Assembly (NCBI RefSeq): GCF_008271465.1
Contig: NZ_VMDU01000002.1
Location: 186,001-250,000, forward strand
Source: Tabrizicola flagellatus
Lineage (GTDB): Bacteria > Pseudomonadota > Alphaproteobacteria > Rhodobacterales > Rhodobacteraceae
Length of the DNA: 64,000 nt
Direction of reading: 5' to 3'
Shown here in pieces: positions 664 to 38,796 of this stretch. The position numbers and the translations under genes were made by a program. Below the pieces are notes generated by a model that did no database searches, was not told the DNA's origin, and worked only from the letters and a program-made list of their open reading frames with translations. Each line of letters begins with the position of its first letter. The stretch's first letter is position 1.

Positions 664-667
664 CGGA

Positions 668-6187: not shown

Positions 6188-7074
6188 TGCTTGACCGACT
6201 TTCGCAACCGGCGCGCGGGCATCTGGCGATGCTGGCGTTTTCGGCTCTGGTTGCAGGGTCCTTCTCGCTGGGGGTGCTGGCCGCGCCGCATATCGACCCC
6301 GGCGCCCTGTCGGTCGTGCGCTTCGTGCTGGCCGGGGTGCTGGTGGGGGCGGCAGCGCAGGCGACGACCGGCATCCCGCGCCAGGCGCTCCGGGCGCCCT
6401 GGCGCTATCTGGTGCTGGGCGGCCTCCTGGCCAGCTATTTCGTGCTGATGTTCGAGGGGCTGAAGACGGCCCAGCCGGTTTCGGCGGCGGCGGTGTTCAC
6501 GCTGACGCCGCTGATGGCGGCGGGGTTCGGCTGGCTGACCCTGCGCCAGCGGCTGACGGGGCGGATGGCGCTGGCGCTGGCCATCGGGGCGCTGGGAGCG
6601 CTGTGGGTGATCTTCCGCGCCGACCTCGGGGCGCTCATGGCGTTCGAGATCGGGCGGGGCGAGGCGATCTATTTCCTGGGCTGCGTGGCCCATGCCGCCT
6701 ATGCGCCCCTGGTGCGCAAGCTGAACCGGGGCGAGCCGGCGGTGGTCTTCACCTTCGGGATGATGCTGGCCGGCACCCTGCTTCTGGCGCTTTACGCCTG
6801 GCCGGCGGTGCTGGCGACGGACTGGGCGGCGCTGCCGGGCATCGTCTGGATCACGCTGGTCTATGTCGCGGTGGCCGCCAGCGCCCTGACCTTCGTCCTG
6901 CTGCAATATGCCAGCCTGCGCCTGCCGGCGGCGAAGGTGATGGCCTATACCTATCTTGTCCCCTCCTGGGTGATCCTGTGGGAGATCGCCTTGCATGGCG
7001 CGGTGCCGCCCGGCCTGGTGCTGGTGGGTGTGGGGCTGACCGTGCTGGCCCTGGGGCTCTTGCTGAAAGAATAG
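6187..7074 (+). CDS. EamA/DMT family transporter
   Basis: 295 residues with ten predicted hydrophobic helices in two EamA repeats. The first repeat contains SVVRFVLAGVLVGAA and AAAVFTLTPLMAAGFGWLTLRQRLT; the second contains VAVAASALTFVLLQYASLRLPAAKVMAYTYLVP. Such inner-membrane proteins export amino acids, amines or other small metabolites. It is translationally coupled to the LysR gene. The gene is followed after 5 nt by a perfect palindrome (7080-7110) separating it from the convergent kinase gene. The substrate is not known. Confidence 0.9.
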   Translation: MLDRLSQPARGHLAMLAFSALVAGSFSLGVLAAPHIDPGALSVVRFVLAGVLVGAAAQATTGIPRQALRAPWRYLVLGGLLASYFVLMFEGLKTAQPVSAAAVFTLTPLMAAGFGWLTLRQRLTGRMALALAIGALGALWVIFRADLGALMAFEIGRGEAIYFLGCVAHAAYAPLVRKLNRGEPAVVFTFGMMLAGTLLLALYAWPAVLATDWAALPGIVWITLVYVAVAASALTFVLLQYASLRLPAAKVMAYTYLVPSWVILWEIALHGAVPPGLVLVGVGLTVLALGLLLKE

Positions 7075-7079
7075 CGCAA

Positions 7080-7110
7080 GCCTAAGATTTTTCGACGAAA
7101 AATCTTAGGC
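7080..7110. repeat. Perfect palindromic element, copy 1 (convergent junction)
   Basis: A 15-bp arm GCCTAAGATTTTTCG, one centre base, then its exact reverse complement. It lies between the convergent EamA and APH-kinase genes, and the last residues of the kinase (RFFVEKS-stop) are encoded inside it. Related copies occur at 18169-18198 and 38766-38796; the shared core is AAGATTTTCG or AAGAATTTTCG and its complement. It could act as a bidirectional terminator, but the sequence family looks dispersed and mobile. Confidence 0.75.
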
Positions 7111-8032: not shown

Positions 8033-8768
8033 CGCCGCCCCGGCGCAGAAGGTAGATATCCATGATCCAGCCATGCTCGGCCCGCAGCCGGGCGCGGGTG
8101 GCGAGGATGCGCTCGGCCACCTCGGCGAGGGGGCCGTGGATCAGACATTCCTCGGGCATGCCGACATAGGCGCCCCACCAGATATGGGTGTCGGCGAGGT
8201 CGATCGCGGTGAAGGCGCCGCCCTTGTCCAGCATCACGGCAAGCGTCGTCGCGCCTTCGGGCCAGCCGTGGTCGCGCAGCTGCCGTCCGGTGGTGATGGT
8301 GACGGGGGCGGCGAGCATGTTCAGCGGGATCGCATGCGCCGCCGTCAGCGCCTGGAGCGAGGTGATGCCGGGCACGACCCTGACGGTCACGCCCGCAAGC
8401 CGGGCCGCGATGCGCAGCGTGCTGTCGTAAAGCGACGGGTCGCCCCAGACCATCAGCGCGACCTCGCGGGCGCCGGGATGGGCGGCGATGCGCTCGGCCC
8501 AGACCTGCGCGATGGCGTCGTGCCAGTCGTTCACGGCGCCGAGGTAGTCGTCCTGATCGGCGCGCTGGGGCACGTCGTATTCGGCGACGGGGACAGGGCA
8601 GGTCAGCACCTGCGCAAGGATCTGGCGGCGCAGATCGGCGAGGTCGGATTTCGCCTGCCCCTTGCGCGGGATCAGGATCAGGTCCGCCGCGTTCAGCGCG
8701 CGGATGGCCTGTCCGGTCACATGGTCGGGATTGCCGGTGCCGATGCCGATCAGGGAAAGCGTGGTCAT
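8025..8768 (-). CDS. cobF: Precorrin-6A synthase (deacetylating) CobF
   Basis: 247 residues. CobF is the C1-methyltransferase of the aerobic cobalamin pathway and releases acetate while methylating precorrin-5. The N-terminal LSLIGIGTGNPDHVTGQAI is the SAM-binding start of tetrapyrrole methylases, MVWGDPSLYD gives the GDP motif, and VVPGITSLQALTAAH is the PGI/V-T/S signature. The length matches known CobF. The ATG at 8768 is 53 nt after cbiM ends on the same strand; the kinase gene starts within its 3' end. cobF marks the aerobic route. Confidence 0.94.
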   Translation of the reverse strand: MTTLSLIGIGTGNPDHVTGQAIRALNAADLILIPRKGQAKSDLADLRRQILAQVLTCPVPVAEYDVPQRADQDDYLGAVNDWHDAIAQVWAERIAAHPGAREVALMVWGDPSLYDSTLRIAARLAGVTVRVVPGITSLQALTAAHAIPLNMLAAPVTITTGRQLRDHGWPEGATTLAVMLDKGGAFTAIDLADTHIWWGAYVGMPEECLIHGPLAEVAERILATRARLRAEHGWIMDIYLLRRGGDV

Positions 8769-8821
8769 GGCCCGGGCTTTACGGGTGGGCGCGGCCCCGT
8801 GCAAGGCCGCGCCGCATCGGG

Positions 8822-9496
8822 TCAGGCGGCGGAATAGAGCCGCGGCGTCACCAGGGCCGAGCCCTGTGCCCGCAGCGCCTTGGCCGCGGCCAGCACGGCC
8901 AGGTCGGCGATGGGCTCGATCAGCACGACCAGCATGTAGGCCGCGCCGAAGGACAGGATCGAGCCGAGGTTCTCGGCCCCGAAGCCCTGGCCGTAGATCG
9001 CCCAGAAGGCCACCCACGCGACCACGCCGCCCTGATAGACTGTCGAAAGCGCCAGAACCTGCCGGTATTCCAGATCGACATAGGCGGTGCCGGGGGCGAT
9101 GACGCGCCTGGCAACCGCATGCAGGGCGAAGAGCGGCACGAGGAGCGTGGTCAGGTTCATGCCGTATTGCGGCAGGTCGAAGGGCGCGAAGAACAGGCCC
9201 TGGATCAGAAGGCCCATGGCCAGCCCGATCGCCGCCGGCCCCGCGCCAAGGATCAGGAAGAGGGTCGAGCCGAGGATGAAGTGGACCTCGGACACGCCCA
9301 CCGGGAAATGCGGCAGGATCTCGAAGAAGGTGAAGACGCCCACGGTCGCCACCAGCGACCGCAGCGCGACCGAGGCGATGCCGCTTTCGCGGGTGGCCTT
9401 GGCGATGTGGTAAAGCGCCGTGCCGCCGGCCGCGGCGGCGGTGGCGTAGCTGAGCGCGATCTTGGCCCCGTCGACGAGGCCCGGTTCGATATGCAT
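8822..9496 (-). CDS. CbiM-like cobalt transport S component (stand-alone)
   Basis: 224 residues, mainly hydrophobic, beginning MHIEPGLVDGAKIALSYATA. The Met-His-Ile N-terminus with His2 is the hallmark of CbiM/NikM, where the N-terminal amine and His2 ligate Co or Ni, so this exact start matters. AGGAGGG lies about 6 nt before the ATG. Six or seven transmembrane segments can be traced. A cobalamin riboswitch directly precedes it. No cbiN, cbiQ or cbiO gene is present in the window, so it either works alone or borrows an energising module encoded elsewhere. Cobalt rather than nickel is inferred from the B12 context. Confidence 0.85.
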   Translation of the reverse strand: MHIEPGLVDGAKIALSYATAAAAGGTALYHIAKATRESGIASVALRSLVATVGVFTFFEILPHFPVGVSEVHFILGSTLFLILGAGPAAIGLAMGLLIQGLFFAPFDLPQYGMNLTTLLVPLFALHAVARRVIAPGTAYVDLEYRQVLALSTVYQGGVVAWVAFWAIYGQGFGAENLGSILSFGAAYMLVVLIEPIADLAVLAAAKALRAQGSALVTPRLYSAA

Positions 9497-9544
9497 GTCT
9501 GTCCCTCCTGCCGTCACACCCGACGGCGGTTTGCTTCCTTGCAG

Positions 9545-9740
9545 GGCCGGTCTCCTGGCTGGCGGATCGCGGCAGGTTCCTTGCCTTCCCGCCCCTCGGG
9601 GACAGTGGCCTTGGTGGAACCCGCTCACCGCTGACAGTCGCGGGGGCGGCTGATGTCACGGGCCCCCTGTTGGGTAGGCCCGCTCCTCATTCCCGTTTCA
9701 GTCCCGGCGCTTTGCGCCTGATGGGACACCTTGCAGCTTC
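9545..9740 (-). ncRNA. Cobalamin riboswitch upstream of cbiM-cobF
   Basis: Read on the minus strand, the leader shows AAGCTGCAAGGTGTCCC, then GAAACGGGAA, the B12 box AGCCGCCCCCGCGACTGT (9634-9651), GCCACTGTC, and finally GCCAGCCAGGAGACCGGCC close to the start of cbiM. These are the conserved blocks of an adenosylcobalamin riboswitch. High B12 is expected to repress cbiM, cobF and the linked kinase. Boundaries are approximate, since the peripheral helices were not folded. Confidence 0.9.
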
Positions 9741-9792
9741 CTGTCTGCGCCTCTGTCGGCGTCCGGTCAAGGTGGAAGGCGACCGGCCGCGA

Positions 9793-10521
9793 TCAATCCG
9801 CGACGCCTTCGGCCAGGCGGCCATAGAGGATCAGGCCGGGCAGGGGCGAACGGTCGCCGGCCAGGGCTTCGGCCAGGGCGGCGACGGTGGTCCGGTGCAG
9901 GCGCTGGTCCGGGGTGCTGACGGCTTCGGCCAAAAGCGCCGGCGTGTCGGGCGGCAGACCATGGGCGACCAGCGCCGCGGCGAGCGCGGGGAAGGTCCGC
10001 TTGCCCATGTAGACCACCGTGGTCGCGCCGGGATCGGCCAGCGCGGGCAGGTTCAGCCCGGGCGGCAGGTTGCCGGTCACGTCGGCGGCGGTGATGAACT
10101 GGATGCGCTGGGCGTGCTGGCGCCGGGTCAGCGGGATCCCCGCCGCCGCCGCTGCCGCCGAGGCCGAGGTGACGCCCGGGATGATCTCGCAGGGGATGCC
10201 CGCCGCGCGGACGGCGGTCAGCTCTTCCTCCAGCCGACCGAAGATGCCCGAATCGCCCGATTTCAGCCGCACCACCCGGGCGCCGGTCCGGGCATAGTCC
10301 ACCAGAAGGCGGCTGACGTGGTCCTGCCTGGGCGAGGCGCGCCCGGCGCGCTTGCCGACGCCCACCATGTCCGCCCCCGGCCGCGCCAAAGCCAGGATCG
10401 GCCCCGAGGACAGGTCGTCGAACAGCACCGCATCCGCCGCCTCCAGCGCCTTGACCGCCTTGACGGTCAACAGCTCGGGGTCGCCGGGTCCGGCAGAGAC
10501 GAAATGGACGAATCCGGTCAT
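9793..10521 (-). CDS. cobA: Uroporphyrinogen-III C-methyltransferase CobA
   Basis: 242 residues, a single-domain SUMT that makes two methylations of uroporphyrinogen III to precorrin-2, the entry to the corrin branch. Signatures: VSAGPGDPELLTVKAVKALEAAD (residues 8-30), RLKSGDSGIFGRLEEE, PGVTSASAAAAAAGIPLTRR, and VYMGKR. There is no siroheme-synthase extension, so it is dedicated to B12 or works with a separate dehydrogenase. The ATG overlaps the cobB stop by 4 nt. It ends the cobL-cobE-cobM-cobB-cobA arm; the cbiM riboswitch follows directly downstream. Confidence 0.95.
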   Translation of the reverse strand: MTGFVHFVSAGPGDPELLTVKAVKALEAADAVLFDDLSSGPILALARPGADMVGVGKRAGRASPRQDHVSRLLVDYARTGARVVRLKSGDSGIFGRLEEELTAVRAAGIPCEIIPGVTSASAAAAAAGIPLTRRQHAQRIQFITAADVTGNLPPGLNLPALADPGATTVVYMGKRTFPALAAALVAHGLPPDTPALLAEAVSTPDQRLHRTTVAALAEALAGDRSPLPGLILYGRLAEGVAD

Positions 10522-11837
10522 GGGGCAGGCGCGATCAGGTGAAAGAAGGTGCCGGTCGATAGCCCGCCGCCGGGCTGGAGTCGAGTGCTCCCGGTCTCAT
10601 CGACCGGCGCGCCGGTGGCGTCGGTCACCTCGGCCAGCGGTGCATCGGGCTGGGCGAGGATGGTGGAATAGTGGAACTCGTGCCCGCGCAGGCTGCTGCC
10701 CGGCGCATGGCCGGGGATGCCCTGCGCCAGCCGCGCCAGCCGGTAGCCCAGATGCATCTTGCGTTTCTCGAAACTGGTGACCAGGCCCAGCAGCCCCGCC
10801 ATCGGCCAGCGGGCGCCGTCCTTGTCGATGATCGCCTCGCCCATGGCCATGTAGCCCCCGCATTCGCCATGCACGGGCTTGCGGTCGGCAAAGCCGCGCA
10901 GCCCGTCGCGAAAGCGGGTGGCCCTGGCAAGCGTGGCCCCGTGCAGCTCGGGATAGCCGCCGGGCAGCCAGCAGACATCGGCCGAAGGATCCGGGCCCTG
11001 GTCGGCCAGGGGCGAAAAGGGCAGCACCTCGGCCCCCGCCCGGCGCCATCCGTGCAGAAGATGCGGATAGACGAAGCTGAAGGCCGCGTCCCGCGCCAGG
11101 GCGATGCGCTGGCCGGGCGGGGGGATCGGCAGGGGCGGGGCGGGACGCACGGCACTTTCGGCTGCGGCGATCAGGGCGTCGAGGTCCACGGCTTCGCGCA
11201 CCAGATCGCCCGCCGCGCGCAGAAGGTCGGTCAGCGCCGGCAACTCCTCGGCCTGCACCAGGCCCAGATGCCGCTCCGGCATCGCGATCGCCGCGCGCTT
11301 GGGCAGGGCACCCACGACGGGCAGACCCGCCTCCTCCATCCCGGCGCGCAGCAGCGCCTCGTGCCGGGGCGAGGCGACGCGGTTCAGGATCACCCCCGCC
11401 AGCTGCAGCCCCGACCGGAACCGCGCCAGACCCTGCGCCACCGCCGCCGCCGTCTGCGCCTGCCCGCTCGCGTCGATCACCAGCACCACGGGCCAACCCA
11501 TGCGCAGGGCCAGATCCGCCGCCGCGCCATTGCCGCAGGCCCCCGGCGCCGCCACCCCGTCGTAAAGGCCCATCGACCCCTCGGCCAGCACGAGGTCGGC
11601 GCCCTCGGCCAGCCCCGCCAGCCCGTCCAGCATCGCCCCCGGCATGGCCCAGCTGTCGAGGTTCACCGACTCCCGTCCCGAGGCTGCGCGGTGAAAGGCC
11701 GGATCGATGTAATCCGGCCCGTTCTTGAACGGCTGCACCACCAGCCCGCGCTCCCGCAGCGCGGCCAGAAGCCCCAGCATAACCGTGGTCTTGCCCGTGC
11801 CGCTGGCCGGAGCCGAGACCATCAGGCCCGGGATCAC
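10518..11837 (-). CDS. cobB: Cobyrinic/hydrogenobyrinic acid a,c-diamide synthase CobB
   Basis: 439 residues when started at the GTG at 11837, which overlaps the cobM stop in a GTGA arrangement; the first ATG is five codons later. The N-terminal ATP-binding part has the P-loop [14 protein letters not shown] and [14 protein letters not shown]. The C-terminal class I glutamine amidotransferase domain has the nucleophile Cys in [11 protein letters not shown] and a GHEFHYS histidine. In the aerobic pathway CobB amidates the a and c side chains of hydrogenobyrinic acid before cobalt insertion by CobNST. Confidence 0.94.
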
Positions 11838-12616
11838 CGCCCCGTCTCCGGAAACCGCGGATCGGTGCCCACGGGACGATAGCGCCGGTCGTAGTCGCCC
11901 GCGTAAAGCCGGCTTTCCGCGAACCCCTCCTGCGCCAGCGCTCGCCCGACCAGGATCAGCGCCGTCCGCTCGCCCTCGCCGACCGAGGCATCCAGCGTGG
12001 CCAGCGTCGCCCGCAGCACCCTCTCCTCGGGCCAGGAGGCGCGGAACACCACCGCCACCGGACAATCCGGCCCGCAGATGGGCATCAGCCGCGCCACCAC
12101 ATCGCCCAACACATGCACCGACAGATGGATCGCCAGCGTCGCCCCGGTGCGGGCGAAGGCCTCCAGGCTCTCGCCCTCGGGCATCGGCGAGGCGCGGCCC
12201 GAGGTCCGGGTCAGCACGACGGACTGCGCCAGCCCGGGCAGCGTCAGCTCTGCCCCCAGCGCGGCGGCGGCGGCGGCAAAGGACGGCACCCCCGGCGTCA
12301 CGTCATAGGGGATGCCCAGGTCCCGCAGGCGCCGCAGCTGCTCGCCCATCGCCGACCAGACCGACAGATCCCCCGAATGCAGCCGCGCCACGTCCAGCCC
12401 CGCCGCATGCGCCGTGGCGATCTCCGCCATGATCTCGTCCAGCGACAGCGGCGCGGTGTTAACGATCCGGCAGCCGGGCGGACAATGCGCCAGCACCCCT
12501 TCCGGCACCAGCGACCCGGCATACAGACAGACGGGCGAGGCCGCGATCAGGTCGCGCCCCCGGATCGTCAGCAGATCCGCCGCCCCCGGCCCCGCCCCGA
12601 TGAAATGGACGGTCAT
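11834..12616 (-). CDS. cobM: Precorrin-4 C11-methyltransferase CobM
   Basis: 260 residues. CobM methylates C11 of precorrin-4. Signatures: [22 protein letters not shown] at the N-terminus, [17 protein letters not shown] for the GD motif, and [16 protein letters not shown]. The protein continues to a short tail after LIL.VGRAL. The start ATG is at 12616; about 185 bp of dispersed repeat separates it from cobE upstream. The 3' end overlaps cobB by 4 nt. Confidence 0.95.
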
Positions 12617-12800
12617 GTCAAAACCCTCGCTTGCCCCGGCATTTGCCCTTTACCCAAATACTCCCGCCGGAGGTGCGACATGGTTTGCGCCACTGGTTCG
12701 AGCATACCATGTCGCGGCCGAGCCGGTTGCGCGGCCCCCGGGCCGCGCAGAGGCGAGACACAGGCTTGCGCCGCAAGGCGCTCCATTCGGCTCCCGTGTC
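12617..12800 (-). repeat. Composite dispersed repeat between cobE and cobM
   Basis: The cobE-cobM gap is filled by the fullest copy of a repeat seen six times in the window. On the plus strand it reads TTTGCCCTTTACCCAAATA and CTCCCGCCGGAGG (12642-12673), then a hairpin around ACATGGTTTGCGCC...ACCATGT. CCGAGCCGGTTGCGCGG, CCGCGCAGAGGCGAGACA and a GC-rich end complete it. The other full copies (18560-18663 and 35055-35151) have the same order read from the opposite strand. It interrupts an otherwise overlapping operon and shows no coding features of its own. Confidence 0.7.
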
Positions 12801-13160
12801 TCATGCCGCGCCCTCGGCAATCGCCGCCGTCGCCATCCCGTCTGCGGACACCGCCCGCGGCCCCCGCAGTCGCGCGCCCGGCCCCGCCGCCGCAAGCGCC
12901 GCCGCCTCGGCCAGCGAGCCGGTCCCGAACCGCGCCGCCACCCGCTGCGACTGCGTCACCGTCTCCTGGCCGCGCAACGCCGCGTCCGGCACCGCGATCA
13001 CGGGCAGCCCCAGCTCCCGGCCCAGATCCGCCAGCCCCCCTGCCTTGCCCTGCACCGTCGCCAGATGCGTCACGCCCGCAGCCCCCCCCGCGCGGGCCAA
13101 CGCCTCGCGCAGCGCCGCACCACTTGCCCCCGACCGGAACCCGAAGCCCGCCACGATCAT
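12801..13160 (-). CDS. cobE: CobE/CbiG C-terminal-like cobalamin biosynthesis protein
   Basis: 119 residues, matching CobE, the free-standing counterpart of the CbiG C-terminal domain. The conserved start is IVAGFGFRSGASGAALREAL (residues 2-21), and VTQSQRVAARFGTGSLAEAAALAAAG follows in the second half. CobE is thought to bind intermediates or assist ring contraction; its precise role in the aerobic pathway is unsettled. It overlaps cobL by 4 nt. Its 3' end runs up to the composite repeat, which separates it from cobM. Confidence 0.88.
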   Translation of the reverse strand: MIVAGFGFRSGASGAALREALARAGGAAGVTHLATVQGKAGGLADLGRELGLPVIAVPDAALRGQETVTQSQRVAARFGTGSLAEAAALAAAGPGARLRGPRAVSADGMATAAIAEGAA

Positions 13161-14326
13161 CGCACGACGCTCCATTGCAGGATCGGCAGCGCCGCGCGCC
13201 AGCCGCGCTTGCGCCCGATGGCGGCGGGTTCGGACAGCTCGACACGCAGGAGATTGCCGCCCACCCGCGCCGACCAGTCGAGGACCAGCGCCTCGGTCTC
13301 CAGCGTCACCGCGTTCAGGACCAGCCGGGCACCCTCGGGCATCACCTCCCACAGCCGGGCCAGCAAGGCCTCGGACGCCCCGCCGCCGACAAAGACCGCA
13401 TCGGGCGGCGGCAGGCGCTCCAGCCCCTCGGGCGCACGGGCCTCGGTCAGCCGGTGGCGGTGCGACAGGCCGAAGGCCGCGACATTGCCCCGGGCGCGCT
13501 CGGCCCGCGCCGGATCGGCCTCCAGCGCCTCGACCCGCGCGCCTCCGGCCAGCAGCCACTCGATGCCGACCGACCCCGAGCCCGCTCCGATGTCCCAGAG
13601 CAACTCGCCCACCCTCGGCGCCAGGGCAGACAGGGTCAGCGCGCGGACCGGGCGCTTGGTGATCTGGCCGTCATGGTCAAACAGGGCATCGGGCAGGCCG
13701 CCGGCCCGCGGCAGCCCGGGATCGGTGGCCTCGATGGCCGCCGAGACCGGGGCACCTATGGGGCCATCCGGCAGTCCCCGGCTTATCCGCTCCAGCGGAC
13801 CGCCCAGCCGCTCCAGCACGGTCAGCCGCGCATTCGGATGCCCGTTCGCCGCCAGCCAGGCCGCAAGCTCGGCCACCGCCGCCCCATCGCGCAGGGTGCA
13901 GATTGCCCGAACCCCCCGCCCCAGCACCGGGCGCAGCCGGTCGAAGGGTGACGCGTGCAGGCCAAGGCACTGCACCTCCTCCAGCCGCCAGCCCAGCCGG
14001 TTCGCCGCCAGCTGGAAGCTGGACGGCGCGGGATGCGACACCCAGTCGCCGGGGGCGAGATGCGCCATCAGGCTGCCGCCCGCCCCGAACCAGAACGGAT
14101 CGCCCGAGGCGAGGACGACCACCCGTCGCCCGCGATGCTCCAGCACCGGGGCGATGTCGAAGGGCACGGGCCAGGGTCGGCCCCTCTCCCCCGCCTCGAC
14201 CAGCGCCAGATGCCGCGGGCCGCCGAAGACGACCTCGGCCCCTGCCAGGGAGGCGCGGCTTGCGGTCGACAGGCTCTGCGGTCCATCCTCGCCCAGACCG
14301 ATGATCGTCAGCCAGGGATCAGCCAT
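13157..14326 (-). CDS. cobL: Precorrin-6Y C5,15-methyltransferase (decarboxylating) CobL
   Basis: 389 residues with two methyltransferase domains. The N-terminal CbiE-like part begins WLTIIGLGEDGPQSLS and has VVLASGDPFWFGAGGSL. The C-terminal CbiT-like part has the SAM motif LLWDIGAGSGSVGIEWLL (about residues 242-259) and AVFVGGGASEALL. It methylates C5 and C15 and decarboxylates the ring-C acetate. The ATG at 14326 shares its bases with the ATG of divergent cobK (the CATG at 14324-14327), so the two genes start on top of each other in opposite directions. Confidence 0.95.
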   Translation of the reverse strand: MADPWLTIIGLGEDGPQSLSTASRASLAGAEVVFGGPRHLALVEAGERGRPWPVPFDIAPVLEHRGRRVVVLASGDPFWFGAGGSLMAHLAPGDWVSHPAPSSFQLAANRLGWRLEEVQCLGLHASPFDRLRPVLGRGVRAICTLRDGAAVAELAAWLAANGHPNARLTVLERLGGPLERISRGLPDGPIGAPVSAAIEATDPGLPRAGGLPDALFDHDGQITKRPVRALTLSALAPRVGELLWDIGAGSGSVGIEWLLAGGARVEALEADPARAERARGNVAAFGLSHRHRLTEARAPEGLERLPPPDAVFVGGGASEALLARLWEVMPEGARLVLNAVTLETEALVLDWSARVGGNLLRVELSEPAAIGRKRGWRAALPILQWSVVR

Positions 14327-15065
14327 GACCCCCCTCCTTCCGCCGCGCGTCCTTCTCCTCGGCGGCACCACCGAGGCCGCCGCCATGGCCCGCGCGCTGG
14401 CCGAGGCCGGGGTGGAGGCGGTCTATTCCTACGCCGGACGGACCGGGTCCCCGGTGGCGCAGCCCCTGCCCGTCCGTATCGGTGGCTTCGGCGGGGCCGA
14501 GGGGCTGGCGGCCTATCTCCGCGCCGAGGGCATCACGCATCTGGTCGATGCGACCCACCCCTTCGCGGCACAGATGAGCCGGAATGCGGTGAAAGCCTGC
14601 GCGGCGACGCAAACCCCGCTGATCGCGCTGGAGCGCGAGCCCTGGCAGGCCGGCGAGGGCGACCGCTGGACCCATGTCCCCGACCCTGCCGGGGCGGTTG
14701 CGGCCCTCGGACAGGCCCCGCAACGGGTGTTCCTTGCCATCGGTCGCCAGACCCTTGACGCCTTCGCGGCGGCGCCGCAGCACCATTACCTCTTGCGGCT
14801 GGTGGACCCGCCGACCGAACCGCTGCCCCTGCCCCTGGCCGAGGCGGTGATCGCGCGGGGGCCCTTCACGGTGGCGGGCGACCGGGCGCTGCTCTCGGAC
14901 CACCGGATCGAGGTGATCGTGGCCAAGAACGCGGGCGGCGCGGGGGCCGAGGCCAAGCTTGTCGCCGCGCGGGATCTGGGCTTGCCGGTCATCCTGATCG
15001 ACCGGCCCTGGGTGCCCGACCGCCCGGTGGCGCGGACGGTGGCCGAAGTCATGGCGTGGCTCTAG
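14325..15065 (+). CDS. cobK: Precorrin-6A reductase CobK
   Basis: 246 residues. CobK reduces precorrin-6A to precorrin-6B with NADPH. The N-terminal VLLLGGTTEAAAMARALAEAG is the nucleotide-binding start of the CbiJ/CobK family. THLVDATHPFAAQMSRNAVKAC is the conserved DATHPFA signature, and FLAIGRQ and VAKNAGG.GAEAKL appear in the second half. It is one of only two B12 genes here on the plus strand and faces cobL with overlapping start codons. If initiation used the later GTG of VLLLGG the overlap would vanish, but ATG at 14325 keeps a natural N-terminus. Confidence 0.92.
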   Translation: MTPLLPPRVLLLGGTTEAAAMARALAEAGVEAVYSYAGRTGSPVAQPLPVRIGGFGGAEGLAAYLRAEGITHLVDATHPFAAQMSRNAVKACAATQTPLIALEREPWQAGEGDRWTHVPDPAGAVAALGQAPQRVFLAIGRQTLDAFAAAPQHHYLLRLVDPPTEPLPLPLAEAVIARGPFTVAGDRALLSDHRIEVIVAKNAGGAGAEAKLVAARDLGLPVILIDRPWVPDRPVARTVAEVMAWL

Positions 15066-15072
15066 CGGGCGG

Positions 15073-15137
15073 CTCGTCGAGCCCTTCGGGCACTCCTCGC
15101 GGGGGTGCTCCGAGGAGGAACCGAAGGGAACGACGAG
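15073..15137. terminator. Nested GC-rich hairpin between convergent cobK and cobJ
   Basis: Three nested inverted pairs fall in the cobK-cobJ gap: CTCGTCG (15073-15079) with CGACGAG (15131-15137), CCCTTCGG (15082-15089) with CCGAAGGG (15121-15128), and CTCCTCG (15093-15099) with CGAGGAG (15111-15117). It probably stops or stabilises transcripts from both sides. A related hairpin with the same three elements lies at 43738-43799, also in a convergent gap, so this is a dispersed family rather than a unique terminator. Confidence 0.7.
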
Positions 15138-15148
15138 GGTTTCGGCGC

Positions 15149-15883
15149 TCATTTCACGCTCCGGGGGGAGTAGACCCACGGCCCGACGCGGCGGGTGGCG
15201 GAATTGCCGAGGATGACCACGGTGCGCATGTCGGCCATCTCGGGTGTCGCTTCGCCCAGGGTGACGGTGGTCAGGCGCTGGTCGGGCGTGGAGACGGCAC
15301 GGGCGAAGGTGACAAGGCGGTCCGGCCCGCATTCCTCGCGCAGGGTGGCGAGGGCTTTCACGAACCCTTCCGGGCGGCTGGCCGAACGAGGGTTGTAGAA
15401 GGCCATCGCGAAATCGGCGCGGGCGGCGTGGCGGAGGCGGGTCTCGATCACCTCCCAGGGCTTCAGGTTGTCGGACAGGTTGATGCAGCAGAAATCGTGG
15501 CCCAGGGGGGCCCCGGCGGCGGCGGCGGCGGCGAGCATGGCGGTGATGCCAGGCAGGACGCGGATGTCCAGCGCCTGCCAGTCCGCGCGGCCCTCCAGCG
15601 CCTCGAACACGGCCGAGGCCATCGCGAAGACGCCCGGATCGCCGGAGGAGACGACGACGACGCGGCGCCCCTCGGCGGCCATCTGCAAGGCAGCGCGGGC
15701 GCGGTCGAGTTCGACGCGGTTGTCGGACGGGTGCAGCGTCAGTCCGTCGCGTGGGGCGACGCGGGCGACATAGGGGATGTAACCGACAACATCCGTCGCC
15801 TCGGCCAGGGCGGCCGAGACCTCGGGCGTGACCAGCCGGTCGTCGCCGGGGCCGAGGCCCGCGATGGCCAGCCAGCCGCTCAT
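15149..15883 (-). CDS. cobJ: Precorrin-3B C17-methyltransferase CobJ
   Basis: 244 residues. CobJ methylates C17 and drives ring contraction of precorrin-3B to precorrin-4. Motifs: LAIAGLGPGDDRLVTPEVSAAL (N-terminal SAM loop), GYIPYVARV, VVVSSGDPGVFAMASAVFE, VLPGITAMLAAAAAAGAPLGHDFCCINLSD, and AFYNPRS. I use the ATG at 15883, which overlaps the cobI stop by 4 nt; the upstream Met would add a low-complexity Arg/Pro stretch. It is last in the arm starting at the 23.8-kb riboswitch. Confidence 0.95.
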   Translation of the reverse strand: MSGWLAIAGLGPGDDRLVTPEVSAALAEATDVVGYIPYVARVAPRDGLTLHPSDNRVELDRARAALQMAAEGRRVVVVSSGDPGVFAMASAVFEALEGRADWQALDIRVLPGITAMLAAAAAAGAPLGHDFCCINLSDNLKPWEVIETRLRHAARADFAMAFYNPRSASRPEGFVKALATLREECGPDRLVTFARAVSTPDQRLTTVTLGEATPEMADMRTVVILGNSATRRVGPWVYSPRSVK

Positions 15884-16611
15884 TCCGGCAGCTCCGGGCG
15901 GCGGCCGTGGCCGTGGACGAGGACGATCGCGAAATAGGGGCAATCATTCGGATCTACGTCGGCGAGGCGCGCGACGCGCTGGTTCGGCATGGTGCCGCGT
16001 TCGACGAGCCAGGCCCGGTCGAGCCGCCCCGCCCGCTCCAGCGCGCGGCGGACGCGGGGCAGGTTGCGGCCGGTCTTCATGATGACCAGCGCGTCCGCCT
16101 GTTCCATGTGGCGGACGAGGTCGTCCTCGGGCAGCGTGGCCATGAGCACGGTCAGCACGTCGTCGCCCCAGGTGATCGGCATGTCGGTGGCGGTCCAGCA
16201 TCCGGTCATGCCGGTGATGCCGGGGATCACCTCCACGGGCACCCGGCCTTGCAGGCGGGAATGGAGGTGCATGAAGCTGCCGTAGAAGAAGGGGTCGCCC
16301 TCGCAGAGAACGACGACATCCTCGGTCTCGGCCAGCGCCGCGAGGCGGTTCGCCCAGTCGTCATAGAAATGCGCCAGCGCGTCGATGTAGCCCGGGCTGT
16401 CGAAGGGCAGTTCCGTGGTGACCGGATATTCCATCGGGTATTCCACGGCGTCCGGGGGAAGCATCCCCTCGACGATCCGGCGCGCCTGCCCGGCACGGCC
16501 CTCCTTGCGGAAATAGGCGACATGTTTCGCCGCGCCGATGGTGCGGGCGGCCTTGAGGCTCATCAGGTCCGGGTCGCCGGGGCCGAGCCCGGCGCAGATC
16601 ACGCGGCCCAT
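15880..16611 (-). CDS. cobI: Precorrin-2 C20-methyltransferase CobI
   Basis: 243 residues. CobI methylates C20 of precorrin-2. Signatures are ICAGLGPGDPDLMSLKAARTI (residues 5-25), VVVLCEGDPFFYGSFMHL, and VIPGITGMTGCWTATDMPITWGDD. LVIMKTGRNLPRVRRAL follows. The ATG at 16611 avoids an upstream extension that would be read through a C-rich repeat. A 115-bp gap with that repeat separates it from cobH, while its stop overlaps cobJ. Confidence 0.95.
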   Translation of the reverse strand: MGRVICAGLGPGDPDLMSLKAARTIGAAKHVAYFRKEGRAGQARRIVEGMLPPDAVEYPMEYPVTTELPFDSPGYIDALAHFYDDWANRLAALAETEDVVVLCEGDPFFYGSFMHLHSRLQGRVPVEVIPGITGMTGCWTATDMPITWGDDVLTVLMATLPEDDLVRHMEQADALVIMKTGRNLPRVRRALERAGRLDRAWLVERGTMPNQRVARLADVDPNDCPYFAIVLVHGHGRRPELPE

Positions 16612-16639
16612 GGCGCGCCCCTTTCGATCTTCGTCGGGC

Positions 16640-16676
16640 GCCCCCCACCCCCCTCCCCTCCCCACGAGGGGGAGGG
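16640..16676. repeat. C-rich dispersed repeat between cobH and cobI
   Basis: A CCCCCCACCCCCCTCCC run followed by CTCCCCACGAGGGGGAGGG forms a short hairpin in the gap between cobH and cobI. The same unit recurs at 21331-21376 (inside cobN), 55010-55053 and 55083-55124 (start of lptE), and 61667-61708. It sits within an operon and shows no poly-T, so termination is doubtful. Confidence 0.65.
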
Positions 16677-16726
16677 CAAGGGCGGAACGGGCAGATCACG
16701 GGACAGTGGAACCGGCGGGGCCATGG

Positions 16727-17356
16727 TCATTCCTTACGGGAGGCAAGCGCGTTGACGGCTGCCACGGTGATCGCGCTGCCACCGAGGCGTCCCTTGACGA
16801 TAAGGCTGGGGGCCGGGGGTGCTTCCATCAGCGCGTCCTTCGACTCGGCGGCGCCGACGAAGCCCACCGGGCAGCCGATGATCGCGGCGGGGCGGGGGCA
16901 GGCGGGGTCTTCCAGCATGTTCAAGAGGTGGAACAGCGCCGTGGGCGCGTTGCCGATGGCGACGACGGACCCCGCCAGGTGCGGACGCCAGAGTTCCAGC
17001 GCGGCGGCGGAGCGGGTGTTGCCCATTTCCTTTGCCAGAGCCGGGACCTGAGGGTCGTGCAGCGTGCAGATCACCGCGTTGTCCCTGGGCAGGCGGGCGC
17101 GGGTGATACCCTCGCTGACCATCCGGGCGTCACAGAGGATGGGCGCGCCGTCTTCGAGTGCGGCGCGCGCGGCTATCGCCATGCCGGGGGTGAAGCGGAT
17201 GTGCGGGGCAAGCTCCACCATCCCGGCGGCATGGATCATGCGGACGGCGACAATTTCCTCTTCGGGCGTGAACCGGGCGAGGTCGGCCTCGGCCCGGATC
17301 ATGGCGAAGCTCTGCCGGTAGATCGCGGCGCCATCGGTTTCATAGAGGTGGGGCAT
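16727..17356 (-). CDS. cobH: Precorrin-8X methylmutase CobH
   Basis: 209 residues, the expected length. CobH moves the C11 methyl to C12, yielding hydrogenobyrinic acid. The conserved catalytic His lies in VRMIHAAGMVE (about residue 41). PILCDARMVSEGI, AIGNAPTALFHLL and AIIGCPVGFVGAAESKDAL are family signatures, and IVKGRLGGSAI closes the active site. Its start overlaps the cobG 3' end by 17 nt. It is part of the cobG-cobH-cobI-cobJ run. Confidence 0.96.
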   Translation of the reverse strand: MPHLYETDGAAIYRQSFAMIRAEADLARFTPEEEIVAVRMIHAAGMVELAPHIRFTPGMAIAARAALEDGAPILCDARMVSEGITRARLPRDNAVICTLHDPQVPALAKEMGNTRSAAALELWRPHLAGSVVAIGNAPTALFHLLNMLEDPACPRPAAIIGCPVGFVGAAESKDALMEAPPAPSLIVKGRLGGSAITVAAVNALASRKE

Positions 17357-18530
17357 GCGGGGCCTTCAGGTGGTCGAGGATTGCCTGCCGGGAGAGGCCC
17401 GTCAGGCTTGGCGTGTCATGGGCGGTTCCGTTCCGGATCAGGTCGTAGCCCTTGCCGGTGGCGGTGATTGTCAGGGGCGCGGGGCCGGGATGGGCGCAAC
17501 CCTTGGCGCAGCCGGAGATGTGGAGGGTCTGGCCGGGCACCAGGTGCGGGGCAAGCTGGCGGGCAAGCCGGCGCGTATCGCCAAGCGCCTGCGGGCAGGC
17601 GGGGGCACCGGTGCATGCGGTGATCCGCAGGATCGGGTCTGCGGGTGCGGTGATGACGCCCGGGATGGCCGGCAGTGTCGGTGCGCCGACAACGAACAGC
17701 ATGCGCCAGGGTGTCGGGCGGATCTCGTGGCCAAGGGCGGCGAGGGCGTGCAGCGTTTCGGCGCGCATCTGGCCGAAGGCGAGGGCGACGAGGGCGCCGT
17801 CCGGGTGGAGACCGGGGCCGGGCGTCGGGAGCGGCTCGGCGGGGGCAAGGGTGCAACCGGAGGGGACGATGCCCCGGGCGACGAGAGCGGCCATGCGCCC
17901 CCGGCCATTGGCGATGCCGCCGCTGGCGACGAACCAGTCGGCCATGGCGATGGCGTCTGTGGCAAGGTCGGTGACGGGCTGGCCGGAGGGGTGGCCGTCG
18001 GGGCGAAGGATCAGGCTGCCGTCCGCGCTGCGTTCGACGCGAATGTCGGCGGAGGCCCCGGTCAGAACCGGGCGGGGGCCGGTGTCCAGCGCGAAGCCGA
18101 ATTTGGCCGGAAGTTTCGGCATCTGGGCGAGGGCGGCGGTGAGGGTGGCGGTGAGGCTGTCGGTCTCGGCCAAAATCTTTCGTCCGAAAGATTTTGGCGT
18201 CTCTCCTGCACCTTCGGTCTCGCGGAAGGGCGTGACGATGAGGTTGCGGAGGGTTTCGGTCTCGATGTCGGGGTCGATCAGGCCATGGGCGCGGAGGTCG
18301 TCGATGAGGCGCGGATGCGAGGCCTCGGTCACGCCGCGCAGTTGCAGGTTGGCGCGGGCGGAGAGGTCGATGATGCCATTGCCATGGGTTTCGGACGCTG
18401 TCGCTATGGCTGCGGCCTGCGCCGGGGTCAGGCGGCCCATCGGCGGACGGATGCGCACGACGAGGCCGTCGCCGGAGGGCATGGGGCGGAGGGCTCCGGG
18501 GCACCAGCCCTTGATCTCCCAGGCGGTCAT
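17340..18530 (-). CDS. cobG: Precorrin-3B synthase CobG (with in-frame palindromic insertion)
   Basis: 396 residues. CobG is the oxygen-using Fe-S/siroheme-like enzyme of the aerobic pathway and converts precorrin-3A to 3B. Ferredoxin-sulfite-reductase half-domains begin WCPGALRPMPSGDGLVVRIRPP. The 4Fe-4S ligands are in CTGAPACPQAL and HISGCAKGCAHPGPAPLT. Residues about 111-122 (TPKSFGRKILAE) are encoded by a perfect palindrome; removing 36 bp, the element plus one copy of a GTCTC repeat, would join GAGE directly to TDSLTATL. The frame stays open, so the enzyme is likely functional, with the insert in a surface loop. Presence of cobG marks the aerobic route. Confidence 0.94.
   Translation of the reverse strand: MTAWEIKGWCPGALRPMPSGDGLVVRIRPPMGRLTPAQAAAIATASETHGNGIIDLSARANLQLRGVTEASHPRLIDDLRAHGLIDPDIETETLRNLIVTPFRETEGAGETPKSFGRKILAETDSLTATLTAALAQMPKLPAKFGFALDTGPRPVLTGASADIRVERSADGSLILRPDGHPSGQPVTDLATDAIAMADWFVASGGIANGRGRMAALVARGIVPSGCTLAPAEPLPTPGPGLHPDGALVALAFGQMRAETLHALAALGHEIRPTPWRMLFVVGAPTLPAIPGVITAPADPILRITACTGAPACPQALGDTRRLARQLAPHLVPGQTLHISGCAKGCAHPGPAPLTITATGKGYDLIRNGTAHDTPSLTGLSRQAILDHLKAPHAPPL
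18168..18203. repeat. Palindromic element, copy 2, inside cobG, with 5-bp direct repeats
   Basis: Arms GCCAAAATCTTTCG (18169-18182) and its exact complement (18185-18198) with two centre bases. GTCTC occurs immediately outside on each side, at 18163-18167 and 18199-18203, as a target-site duplication would. Element plus one duplicate is 36 bp, so the cobG frame is kept. Copies 1 and 3 have the same architecture but lie in convergent gaps. Confidence 0.75.
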
Positions 18531-18559
18531 GCGGCGGCCCCCAGGGTCTGCACGGGTGT

Positions 18560-18663
18560 TGAAAGGAGCGCGTTCCGCGCGCGCCTTTTGTCTCGCCTCT
18601 GCGCGCGAAGGGCGCGCAACCGGCTCGGGTGGCCTCCGGCAGGGATATTTGCAGACAGATGAA
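18560..18663 (-). repeat. Composite dispersed repeat between cobN and cobG
   Basis: The cobN-cobG gap holds a copy of the composite repeat: a TTGTCTCGCCTCTGCGCGC hairpin with GCGCGCAACCGGCTCGG, then CCTCCGGCAGGGATATTTGC and AGACAGATGAA (to 18663). The same blocks in the same order occur at 35055-35151. It interrupts a tightly packed operon without coding anything recognisable. Confidence 0.7.
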
Positions 18664-18672
18664 ATGGCCGGG

Positions 18673-21600
18673 TCATGCGGCACCGTCCAGCCGGGCTGCA
18701 ATGGAGTTGCGGCGGGTCTGCCAGAGGCCGGCGTCGCGGAGGCGGCGGAAGAGGTCTTCCATCGCGGCGAGGGCCTGCGGGTTTTCGCGTTGGAGGAAGT
18801 CGCGGACCTCGTCGCGGCCCAGGGTGGCCTCGTGGTAGAGGTCGAAGAGGTGCGGGGGGACGACCTGGGCCAGATGCGCGAAGGCCGCCATGTGGTCGAG
18901 AGTGGCGGCGATTTCGGCCCCGCCCCGGAAGCCGTGGTGCATCATGCCTTCGGCCCAAGCCGGGTTGGCGGCCCGGGCGCGGACGACGCGGGCGATTTCC
19001 TCGGTGAGGGTGCGCGCGTGGGGCGTGTCCGGGCGGGTCGCGTCGAGGTGGTAGAGGGTTGGTTTCGCGCCGCCCAGCCTGGCCACGGCGGCGGCGAAGC
19101 CGGCCTCGTGCGCGGCGTAGTCGGCGGCGATCAGGACATCGGTTTCGGGGAGGTCCTGGGCGTGGACGAAGCTGTCTGACGCAAGGACGCGCTGTTCGAG
19201 GGCCGCGCGGGCCTCGTGCGACTGGCCGTCCGGGCCGATGGCCCAGGAGGAGGCGTTGAGCCAGGCTTCGCCGGCGGCCTGGAGGGCCTCGTCGGTGAAG
19301 GTGTCGGCGGCGGTTCCCATGCCGAGGCCGTAGAGGCCGGGTCTCGGGCCGAAGACGCGGGATTGCCTTGTGGTGTAGGGGTTGTCCTCGGGCGCTTCGT
19401 CGCGTTGGCTGAGGGCTTCGGCGCCGGCCTCGAATAGCTGGGCGAGCGTCGGGAACACGTCGCGGAACAGGCCGGAGACGCGGAGAGTGACGTCGATGCG
19501 GGGGCGGCCGAGGAGGGCGAGGGGAAGGATCTCGAAGCCGGAGACGCGGGCGGAGCCGTCGTCCCATTTCGGCGCAAGGCCGGCGAGGTGCAGGGCCATG
19601 GCGAATTCCTCGCCCGCCGTGCGCATCGTGGCGCTTCCCCAGAGGTCGACGACCAGCCCGCGCGGGTAGTCGCCGTGGTCCTGCAGGTGGCGGCGGATCA
19701 GTTCCTCGGCCAGCTTGACGCCCTGGGCATGGGCATTGCGCGAGGGGACGGCGCGGGGATCGACGGAGAAGAGGTTGCGCCCAGTGGGCAGCACGTCGCT
19801 GCGGCCCCGGTGGGGAGAGCCGGCGGGCCCGGGCGCGACGCGCTGGCCGTTGAGGGCGGTGAGGAGGCCCTGGGTCTCGCCTTGGCCGTCGCCGAAGATG
19901 TGGAGACCTTGGCCGAACTGGCTTTCCTTCAGGTCGCAGACGAAGCGGTCGATCCGGGTGATCGCCTCGGCCGGGGTGGCGCTGGCGGACAGGCCGAGGT
20001 CGGCGGCGACGCCGGAGGCGGCGGCCTCGTCGCGGATCGTCTCGATCAGGCGGCGGCGGCGGGCGGGGTCGAGGCCGTCGGCTGTGGAGTATTCGTCGAG
20101 GAGGCGTTCGAGGCGTTGGAGTTCGGGCGGGACCTGGGCCGTGGTGAGCGGCGGCGGCAGGTGGCCGAGGGTGACGGCGCCAATACGGCGCTTGGCCTGG
20201 GCGGCCTCGCCGGGGTCGTTGACGATGAAGGGGTAGATGACCGGGGTGGGGCCGATCAGCGCCTCGGGCCAGCAGGTGTCGGAAAGGGCGACGGACTTGC
20301 CCGGCAGCCATTCCAGCGTGCCGTGCGCGCCCATGTGGATCAGCGCGTGGAGGCCTTGGCGTCGGAGCCAGAGGTAGAAGGCGACATAGGCATGGCGCGG
20401 GGTGCGGGAGAGGTCGTGATAGTCGCTGTCGCGGCTGGCGACCTCGCCGCGTTCGGGTTGCAGCGCGATCAGCGCATGGCCGCGCCGGGTGGCGGGGAAG
20501 CGGAACTGGCCGTCGCGGACCGAGGGGTCGGAGGCGGGGTCGCCCCAGGCCTCGTGAAGGTCGGTGCGAAGCGGCTCGGGGAGGGTTTCGAGGGCCGCGA
20601 GATAGTCGGCAACGGGCCAGGCGAGGGTTTCCGTCAGGGCCTCGGTCAGCGGTGCGCCATTGGCGATCCGGTAGCCCTCGGCGGCGAGGGTTTCCAGAAG
20701 GCGGTCGGTGGAGGCCAGCGCGTCGAGGCCGACGGCATGGGCCATCTGGTGCGGGCGGCCGGGGTAGGTGGAGAGGATGACGGCCAGCTGGCGGTCCGGC
20801 GCGGGAGTGGTGGCCAGGCGGTGCCAGCGGCTGACGCGGCCCACGACGGCAGCGATTCGGGCCGCGTCGGCGCGGTGAGCGAAGCGGGAGAATTGCAGGT
20901 CCGGGTGGCGTTTGCCGGGGGACTTGTGGCTGACGATGCCGGCGAAGAGACGGCCGTCGACTTCCGGCAGGACGACGTGCATGGCCAGGTCGGCGGGCGA
21001 CAGGCCCCGGTCAGAGGCCGCCCAGTCGCGGCGGCGGGCGGTGGAGAGGGCGACCTGGAAGACCGGACAGGTGGCGGCATCGAAGGGGGTCGCGCCGTCG
21101 TCGGCCTTGGCGGAGAAGGCGGTGGCGTTCACGATGGCCATGGATGGGTTTGCGGCGAGATGGGCGGACAGCCAGTCCGCGACGCCCGGAGCCTTGAGGC
21201 TGGGGGCGAAGGCGCCATGGGCGGCGAAGCCTTCCGCGCGGAGGGCATGGATCAGGGCGTCCACAGGGCCGGTGTCGCCGGAGGTCAGGTAGCTGCGGTA
21301 GAAGGTGACGAGGACGGTGCCCTTTCCGGGCAGCCCCCCCTCCCCCGCCGTGGGGAGGGGAGGGGTGAGGGGGGCTTCCGGCACGGGAATGACCCCGCGC
21401 TCGGGATCGTAGAACCCCATCTGCGGTACGGTCTTGTCGCCCATCACCGGCGCGGCGTAGATGCCGGCGGCCAGCGCCAGCTGCGCCAGCGCGGCATGGG
21501 CGGCCACCGCGCCCCCCTCGTCACACAGCGCCTGCAACCGGCGGAGGGTGGAGACGGGGAGCGTGGACAGCTCGTCGAGGCGCGGGTCGGGGCGACCGTC

Positions 21601-21954
21601 GGCGGGGAGGATGGCCAGCGCCGTGCCGGTGCGGCGGGCGAGGTCCTGTAGCGTGGCGAGGCCGTAGGGCCAGTAGGCCTCGCCCCCGATCAGGCGGACG
21701 AGGATGGCCCTGGCGCCGGAGAGGGTGCGTTCCGCGTAGGTGTCGACCGAGATCGGGTGCTTCAGCGCGATGAGATTGGCGAGGCGGACGCTGGGTTGGA
21801 AACCCGCCCCGCGGGCGCGCTCATAGCCCGCCGTGAAGGCCCCGAGGTCGCTGTCGGAGAAGGAAAGCACCACCAGGTCGGCCGGGTCCTGGCCGAGGTC
21901 GAAGGGGGTCTCGGTTTCCTCAAGCCCGTGGCTTTCGCGGAAGACGACGTGCAT
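18673..21954 (-). CDS. cobN: Cobaltochelatase subunit CobN
   Basis: 1093 residues, the large tetrapyrrole-binding subunit of the ATP-dependent CobNST cobaltochelatase, which inserts Co2+ into hydrogenobyrinic acid a,c-diamide. Recognisable family blocks include HMGAHGTLEWLPGKSVALSD, PFIVNDPGEAAQAKRRIGAVTLGHLPPPL, and VVDLWGSATMRTAGEEFAMAL. GMGTAADTFTDEAL follows further on. CobS and CobT are not in the window. Residues about 193-208 (LTPPLPTAGEGG) are encoded by a C-rich dispersed repeat (21331-21376) inserted in frame before VLVTFYRSYL. No frameshift is seen. Expression should follow the riboswitch at 23.65-23.82 kb via DUF1636 and cobW. Confidence 0.95.
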   Translation of the reverse strand: MHVVFRESHGLEETETPFDLGQDPADLVVLSFSDSDLGAFTAGYERARGAGFQPSVRLANLIALKHPISVDTYAERTLSGARAILVRLIGGEAYWPYGLATLQDLARRTGTALAILPADGRPDPRLDELSTLPVSTLRRLQALCDEGGAVAAHAALAQLALAAGIYAAPVMGDKTVPQMGFYDPERGVIPVPEAPLTPPLPTAGEGGLPGKGTVLVTFYRSYLTSGDTGPVDALIHALRAEGFAAHGAFAPSLKAPGVADWLSAHLAANPSMAIVNATAFSAKADDGATPFDAATCPVFQVALSTARRRDWAASDRGLSPADLAMHVVLPEVDGRLFAGIVSHKSPGKRHPDLQFSRFAHRADAARIAAVVGRVSRWHRLATTPAPDRQLAVILSTYPGRPHQMAHAVGLDALASTDRLLETLAAEGYRIANGAPLTEALTETLAWPVADYLAALETLPEPLRTDLHEAWGDPASDPSVRDGQFRFPATRRGHALIALQPERGEVASRDSDYHDLSRTPRHAYVAFYLWLRRQGLHALIHMGAHGTLEWLPGKSVALSDTCWPEALIGPTPVIYPFIVNDPGEAAQAKRRIGAVTLGHLPPPLTTAQVPPELQRLERLLDEYSTADGLDPARRRRLIETIRDEAAASGVAADLGLSASATPAEAITRIDRFVCDLKESQFGQGLHIFGDGQGETQGLLTALNGQRVAPGPAGSPHRGRSDVLPTGRNLFSVDPRAVPSRNAHAQGVKLAEELIRRHLQDHGDYPRGLVVDLWGSATMRTAGEEFAMALHLAGLAPKWDDGSARVSGFEILPLALLGRPRIDVTLRVSGLFRDVFPTLAQLFEAGAEALSQRDEAPEDNPYTTRQSRVFGPRPGLYGLGMGTAADTFTDEALQAAGEAWLNASSWAIGPDGQSHEARAALEQRVLASDSFVHAQDLPETDVLIAADYAAHEAGFAAAVARLGGAKPTLYHLDATRPDTPHARTLTEEIARVVRARAANPAWAEGMMHHGFRGGAEIAATLDHMAAFAHLAQVVPPHLFDLYHEATLGRDEVRDFLQRENPQALAAMEDLFRRLRDAGLWQTRRNSIAARLDGAA
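21331..21376. repeat. C-rich dispersed repeat inside cobN
   Basis: On the plus strand this reads CCCCCCCTCCCCCGCC then GTGGGGAGGGGAGGGG and TGAGGGGGGC, the same C-rich hairpin unit found at 16640, 55010, 55083 and 61667. It is read in frame in cobN as a Pro/Gly-rich stretch containing LPTAGEGG. Peptides of the GEG type are the usual translation product of such repeats. Confidence 0.65.
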
Positions 21955-23548: not shown

Positions 23549-23650
23549 TGCCTATCCAAAGGCGAAAGGGGTGGGCCAGCGAGGGGCCGCCCGATACCTG
23601 GGGCCGCCGATCACCGGTCGCGGAACACCCCGTCCGCCGGTTGCCTTCCG

Positions 23651-23822
23651 CGCTGGCAGGTCTCCCGGCTTGCGGATACGGGGCATCTGCCCCACGGCCC
23701 CCGCCTTCCCGGCTGCCGCCAGTGGCCATGGGACCTCTCCGGTCACGGTCGCGGGGGCGGCTGCTTCCAGGTCACTTCCGGCCTGTCGCATTCCCTCTTC
23801 GCCTGTCATAAACAGGAACCAG
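23651..23822 (-). ncRNA. Cobalamin riboswitch upstream of DUF1636-cobW-cobN
   Basis: Read on the minus strand: CTGGTTCCTGTTTATGACAGG, GAAGAGGGAA, the B12 box AGCCGCCCCCGCGACCGTGA (about 23743-23762), GCCACTGGCGGC, and GCCGGGAGACCTGCCAGCG at the 3' side. These are the standard conserved blocks of cobalamin riboswitches. It should repress the DUF1636-cobW-cobN-cobG-cobH-cobI-cobJ transcript when adenosylcobalamin is plentiful. The divergent cobO promoter must lie between this element and 23875. Confidence 0.92.
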
Positions 23823-23874
23823 CGCCAGCCCACCTGAGGCAAGCACCCCCACCTTGTCAAGGATAGGACCGACC

Positions 23875-38765: not shown

Positions 38766-38796
38766 GCCCAAGAATTTTCGGCGAAAATTCTTGGGC
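38766..38796. repeat. Perfect palindromic element, copy 3 (convergent junction)
   Basis: A 15-bp arm GCCCAAGAATTTTCG (38766-38780), one centre base and the exact complement (38782-38796). It lies 7 nt after the chrR stop and 16 nt before the end of the convergent HutD-like gene. Same design as copies at 7080-7110 and 18169-18198. Confidence 0.75.

Follow-up and report, generated by a model that had tools for sequence, protein, structure and literature searches.

An AT-rich perfect palindrome read in frame within cobG of Tabrizicola flagellatus, and a family of short hairpin repeats

The cobG locus and its palindrome

The window, which is the whole 64,000-nucleotide stretch of Tabrizicola flagellatus DNA analysed here, carries the adjoining genes cobG and cobN on its minus strand. 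The cobG product is identified as precorrin-3B synthase by the TIGR02435 model (259.6 bits against a cutoff of 234.8), and its residues Cys306, Cys312, Cys341 and Cys345 are invariant in a 37-row alignment. The gene contains the palindrome GCCAAAATCTTTCG-TC-CGAAAGATTTTGGC, which the initial annotation had described as perfect, with 14-bp arms and read in frame, and this description holds, as do the residues that it was said to encode. The minus-strand RNA of positions 18159-18208 folds at -18.7 kcal/mol (z -4.93). The palindrome is open in all reading frames and is thus translatable. Six perfect inverted repeats in the window have arms of 11 bp or longer around loops of no more than 8, against four in total in ten first-order Markov sequences of equal length. 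The features of the window are collected in Table 1.

Table 1. Positions of the palindromes, flanking repeats and genes in the window
Feature	Coordinates	Strand	Remarks
cobG, precorrin-3B synthase	17340..18530	minus	open frame with insert
AT-rich perfect palindrome in cobG	18169..18198	minus	14-bp arms, 2-nt loop; in-frame part of TPKSFGRKILAE
Left GTCTC, proposed target duplication	18163..18167	no strand	judged common local sequence
Right GTCTC	18199..18203	no strand	further GTCTC starts at 18217 and 18259
Sister palindrome	7080..7110	no strand	15-bp arms, 1-nt loop; convergent junction; supplies last residues and stop of a minus-strand kinase-like gene
Sister palindrome	38766..38796	no strand	15-bp arms, 1-nt loop; convergent genes on either side, with predicted stops 7 and 16 nt away
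CobN residues about 196-210 (LTPPLPTAGEGGLPG), probable shortened GC-rich repeat	21325..21369	minus	protein level; coordinates by arithmetic from frame 18673-21954

A GTCTC stands on each side of the palindrome, the left one separated from it by a single extra G. On the plus strand GTCTC starts at 18163, 18199, 18217 and 18259, and TCGGTCTCG is present nine times in the window, including at 18160, 18214 and 18256, so the flanking repeat is best taken as common local sequence. The proposed removal of 36 bp is indeed in frame, but it leaves 384 aa, 4 above the commonest insert-free form; the window protein has 396 aa and the commonest insert-free relatives have 380, which makes the excess over them 48 bp and not 36. 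A cut of 54 bp, spanning the distance between successive 9-bp repeats, leaves 378 aa.

A family of AT-rich palindromes at gene ends

The two sister palindromes named in the initial annotation are present, with 15-bp arms and 1-nt loops. The motif search suggested there, coded as GCCWAARATNNNCG, gave four places, none with palindrome arms longer than 5 bp; this coding was too strict and fits neither the cobG copy nor that at 7080-7110, so it was an unfair test, and the core TTTCG..CGAAA was used in its place. With this core the predicted further copies were found: TTTCG-N0-3-CGAAA has 56 matches in the 3.6-Mb genome and its reversed control 14, and 33 of the 50 matches that were read have perfect arms of 9-19 bp, the remaining 17 stopping at 5-7. 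The family consensus is (GC)CCAAGAATTTTCG-N-CGAAAATTCTTGG(GC), with stems mostly of 12-15 perfect pairs, and pairing is imperfect in some copies, which are decayed or mismatched.

The commoner core occurs 25 times in the window genome, 23, 13 and 7 times in three relatives of the genus, 0-4 times in the other genus genomes searched, and twice in one genome of another genus in the same family. The AT palindromes are a real, lineage-specific family of hairpin repeats, patchy in the genus. The cobG copy is an outlying variant of this family, and a second locus, L020 (CCAGGATCTTTCG), has the same ATCTTTCG half. With up to 3 mismatches allowed, the window genome holds no second match to the 24-base core of the cobG copy, so no resident donor copy is seen. 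Its arm variant core was found in 4 of 295 sampled Rhodobacteraceae-family genomes, the window genome included, in a sample with only one other genus member. Searches of an open-access collection, among them one with sequence strings, brought up no paper that describes the family in its title or abstract opening. Rfam, at gathering thresholds, gives three matches in the window and none at the palindromes; the matches are two cobalamin riboswitches (9528-9748 and 23638-23838) and an ffh sRNA (5055-5107).

Most of the AT palindromes directly follow a stop codon, many at convergent junctions, and few are within genes. The 35 classified copies of the window genome, which include a few palindromes with imperfect arms (8 or more of 9 pairs beyond the core), are at convergent junctions in 16 cases, at tandem ones in 14, at divergent ones in 2 and inside genes in 3. 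Of the 68 junctions in the window, taken as baseline, 9 are convergent, 50 tandem and 9 divergent, so that convergent sites are over-represented among the copies (Fisher p 1.5e-4; with 16 of the 32 intergenic copies convergent, binomial 6e-7). Gene calls for these copies, for those of the relatives and for the window junctions came from a simple codon-usage script. At 13 of the 16 convergent junctions the two stop codons are inside the palindrome or at most 16 nt away from it. In five relatives, 42 of 50 copies were read, and 12 are convergent, 24 tandem, 2 divergent, 3 inside genes and 1 unclear.

An identity as intrinsic terminators was considered and is not supported, since base counts in the flanks of 72 copies show no U-run behind the hairpins. 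A terminator scan of window positions 1-20000 lists neither of the two palindromes that it covered.

The proposal that a transposable palindrome entered cobG as a 36-bp insertion with a 5-bp target duplication draws on the GTCTC on both sides, on the in-frame cut and on the 38766 copy, which has a 6-bp flanking repeat, CGGGCG. Over 72 copies compared with permuted flanks, direct repeats of at least 4 bases flank 8 copies (7.3 expected, p 0.44), those of at least 5 bases 5 copies (2.4 expected, p 0.067) and those of at least 6 bases 1 copy (0.7 expected). With no clear excess among the copies and with GTCTC locally repeated, the 5-bp target duplication is not borne out. A target-site duplication, by which MITEs are recognised, is likewise not seen, though one lying beyond the ends of perfect pairing, which were taken as the boundaries, could have escaped notice. 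Together with the 384 aa left by the cut and the lack of a resident donor copy, these counts make the transposable palindrome quite improbable.

In-frame copies outside cobG are found at the C-terminus of a molybdopterin-oxidoreductase-like protein (L007 in the window genome, L206 in a relative), at the N-terminus of citramalate synthase (L015, and L186 in a relative) and, in a relative, at the C-terminus of a Kdo-transferase-like protein (L182). Among these three proteins only citramalate synthase passes its curated cutoff, and its copy may lie upstream of the true start, because the family model begins at residue 20. The Kdo-transferase-like protein, which is from G002, also has a GC-rich repeat segment (SLPSPLWGGDGGGG) besides its C-terminal AT palindrome. 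No stop codon interrupts any of the three frames in 52 of 68 copies, as compared with 7% of palindromes with shuffled arms, a figure that is descriptive, as the copies share ancestry.

The family resembles known repeats in part. GTAG/CGTC REPs are described as 20-40 bp long and as lying beside stop codons, for the most part at convergent or tandem junctions, some of them supplying the stop codon and some lying within ORFs; most have 6-9 pairs, and different REPs occupy about the same recB site in two Xanthomonas species (PMC3733652). The AT palindromes, which are multicopy and also of 20-40 bp, are like these REPs in size, in their location at gene 3' ends in convergent and tandem junctions, in stop-codon supply and in having intragenic copies (PMC3733652). 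They differ in having no terminal tetranucleotide, in their mostly 12-15 perfect pairs and in that no Y1 transposase was found in the genome (PMC3733652). No terminal GTAG/CGTC tag is present, and the commonest base at any of the 16 flank positions per side reaches at most 35 of 72 copies. The Y1_Tnp profile (PF01797) has no match at E 1e-3 in the window genome (G000, a draft of 42 contigs), while it matches 5 of 14 control genomes; RAYTs may also have been lost from the window genome.

RPEs, as two reports give them, are about 105-150 bp long, have many intragenic copies and are read in frame within Rickettsia proteins (PMC10969869, PMC2229807). The AT palindromes are similar in being read in frame inside conserved alphaproteobacterial proteins, namely in cobG, the oxidoreductase-like C-terminus and the citramalate synthase N-terminus, but they are about 30 bp long and mostly intergenic (PMC10969869, PMC2229807). 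A length of 30 bp is far from the 100-150 bp or so of RPEs, and the nearest named CobG loci are from Tabrizicola/Rhodobacter and not from Rickettsia. RPEs also lose repeat identity over time, according to a further paper, while the AT palindromes mostly retain matched arms (PMC6649704). The same paper describes perfect inverted repeats, up to 284 bp, that are maintained in protein genes of Nematomorpha mitochondria, which are likewise perfect repeats inside genes, though mitochondrial and much longer (PMC6649704). The likeness to RPEs that had been put forward is one of REP/RPE-like behaviour, with in-frame and gene-end copies, and does not extend to class membership: lacking a tag, with longer perfect stems and with no Y1 transposase found, the family is not filed under REPs or RPEs.

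The cobG linker and cobN as insert sites

The AT palindrome is absent from cobG in all 23 other genus genomes read, as had been expected of an insertion. Among the 24 genus genomes whose cobG spans the linker site, seven have an insert of at least 12 residues, all at one linker, and one further genome has 4 extra residues. The inserts are of unrelated kinds: the AT palindrome, in the window genome only; a CCCGGGCTTGACCCGGG (CCCGGG) palindrome, in G001 and G021; and a GC-rich hairpin repeat, in G004, G011 and, by likeness, G026, the exact GC-rich core being within the inserts of G004 and G011 and not in that of G026. The insert of G005, a 12-residue piece, may be what is left of the GC-rich repeat, and it does not add to the number of families. 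The CCCGGG core occurs in 12 of 32 genus genomes, with 6 and 8 strand matches in G001 and G021 and 0 in the window genome, and the GC-rich core in 25 of 32, with 17 matches in the window genome. An example of each was folded, and both form long hairpins, at z -2.1 for L087, where 4 of 200 shuffles were equally stable, and at z -3.9 for L065, where 1 of 200 was. In two trees of nearby proteins the insert carriers do not fall in one firmly supported clade, so no number of events is claimed beyond the three unrelated repeat types. A GC-rich repeat core, GTGGGGAGGGGATGGGGGCGGGG, also lies at 61681-61703 of the window.

The insert site is predicted to be a low-confidence linker that follows the first nitrite/sulfite-reductase-like stretch of CobG. 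In the AlphaFold model, which has a mean pLDDT of 87.6, the only internal segments below 50 are residues 105-112 and 114-116, with a helix drawn from 113, and block pLDDT is 55 and 51 over residues 101-120. PDB sequence matches to CobG end at residue 102, and Foldseek matched sulfite and nitrite reductases.

The adjoining cobN appears, from its sequence, to have a similar insert site common to relatives. At residues about 193-212 of CobN, L050, L055, L057 and L087 have GC-rich repeats, L051 has a CCCGGG-type segment, GLDPG..GPGSSPGRG, and the window has a short remnant, while most other rows have nothing alike.

Descent, upkeep and origin of the palindromes

At the 7080 junction, 21 of 24 loci are readable. 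Three loci have only 1-5 nt between the genes, ten have an unrelated spacer of 61-78 nt and one has a 30-nt spacer. In four the genes are 681-970 nt apart, and the stop call of one of these is doubtful. G026 has a decayed palindrome at the same spot, and G005 a different palindrome at the stop codon. The palindrome does give the kinase-like gene its last residues and stop, as had been claimed, but by eye it replaces the relatives' tail and is not a clean insertion. At the 38766 junction 28 of 30 loci are readable, 27 of them from relatives, and the consensus palindrome is present in 0 of these 27. Some are nearly empty, G010 has the related palindrome CGATCTTTCG-G-CGAAAGATCG, and a REP-like GAAGCCCGGCCTA motif is present in several.

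Of 34 palindromes of the window genome, 9 have a counterpart palindrome, with both flanks matched, at the orthologous junction of one or more of five other genomes, and a tenth is matched on one flank. Many copies look old and inherited, and the orthologous positions favour descent for those 9 of 34. Changes on both sides of the stem number 103 in 68 copies, against a shuffle mean of 46 (0 of 500 shuffles as high) and 10-34 in slid controls; these 68, also used for the frame counts, were selected for at least 9 perfect pairs and share ancestry. The paired arm changes suggest upkeep by selection or template switching.

It is possible, if doubtful, that all these are terminator-like hairpins of gene 3' ends that evolved in place by descent, with the cobG copy a stray. 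This account overlaps with the explanation favoured below and mainly denies spread; the tight 3' location, the 9 of 34 orthologous junctions and the paired changes are in keeping with it, while the missing U-run, the terminator scan that lists neither covered palindrome and the relatives' two window junctions, which are empty, decayed or unrelated, argue against it.

The patchy distribution and the empty sites suggest that the palindromes have been mobile. The mobile palindrome tolerating coding targets that was first envisaged thus keeps part of its basis, in the other copies, some of them in frame, and in the orthologous junctions without a palindrome, and loses another part, as a target duplication is not supported and copies are mainly at gene 3' ends, with 3 of 35 inside genes.

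The oxidoreductase-like tail has palindrome arms of at least 8 in 26 of 30 genus loci (L293-L322) and is missing in G020 and G024. G005 and G014 have a matched pair of synonymous changes relative to the common form, and one-sided mismatches occur in, for example, G012, G026 and G010; G023, with 13 family copies, nevertheless has a different palindrome there. Adjacent coding palindromes, often with co-changing arms and a peptide like SSKNFAKSFRKLL, are found at this tail in most of the genus (L007 1450-1545 in the window genome).

The cobG palindrome might also have been made in place, by template switching that perfected a short local inverted repeat in the variable linker, with the family likeness partly due to convergence. 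The cobG arm sequence is unique in the genome, coding palindromes at another genus locus change both arms together, and template switching is reported to create and maintain hairpins (PMC8794818). We consider this origin unlikely, as it predicts neither the TTTCG..CGAAA family core nor the ATCTTTCG half common to L020.

The explanation that we favour, and regard as probable, is that the cobG element is one copy of the lineage-specific family of short AT-rich perfect palindromes, which can form DNA or RNA hairpins, are REP/RPE-like in behaviour and are now and then placed at new sites. Weighing against it are the lack of a target-duplication signal, of a Y1 transposase in the draft genome and of a resident donor, the 9 of 34 palindromes at orthologous junctions, the different palindrome at the G023 tail, and the decayed or mismatched copies. 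Copies occasionally placed in this way would persist where they are harmless or useful. Most would do so downstream of stop codons, where hairpins that lack a U-run could shield the 3' ends of mRNAs, and a few in flexible protein segments such as the cobG linker. Selection on the hairpin, template-switch copying between the arms, or both would keep the pairing perfect.

A wider conjecture, tentative and on balance somewhat unlikely, is that in the genus replication template switching, with no dedicated transposase, both spreads the palindromes and preserves their perfect arms, and that they colonise gene ends as well as flexible protein segments; a few linkers, such as those of cobG and cobN, would then be shared landing places for unrelated hairpin families, where protein sequence is repeatedly rewritten. 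Three unrelated hairpin repeats in one enzyme linker of close species make a natural series on insert-accepting protein sites. Co-changing arms, found also inside coding sequence, may separate hairpin selection from template-switch repair, because codon constraints are known there.

Elsewhere in the window, positions 59721-59747 and 60835-60861 hold near-identical AAAGAGCGGGC..GCCCGCTCTTT inverted repeats, 1.1 kb apart, that resemble bidirectional terminators.
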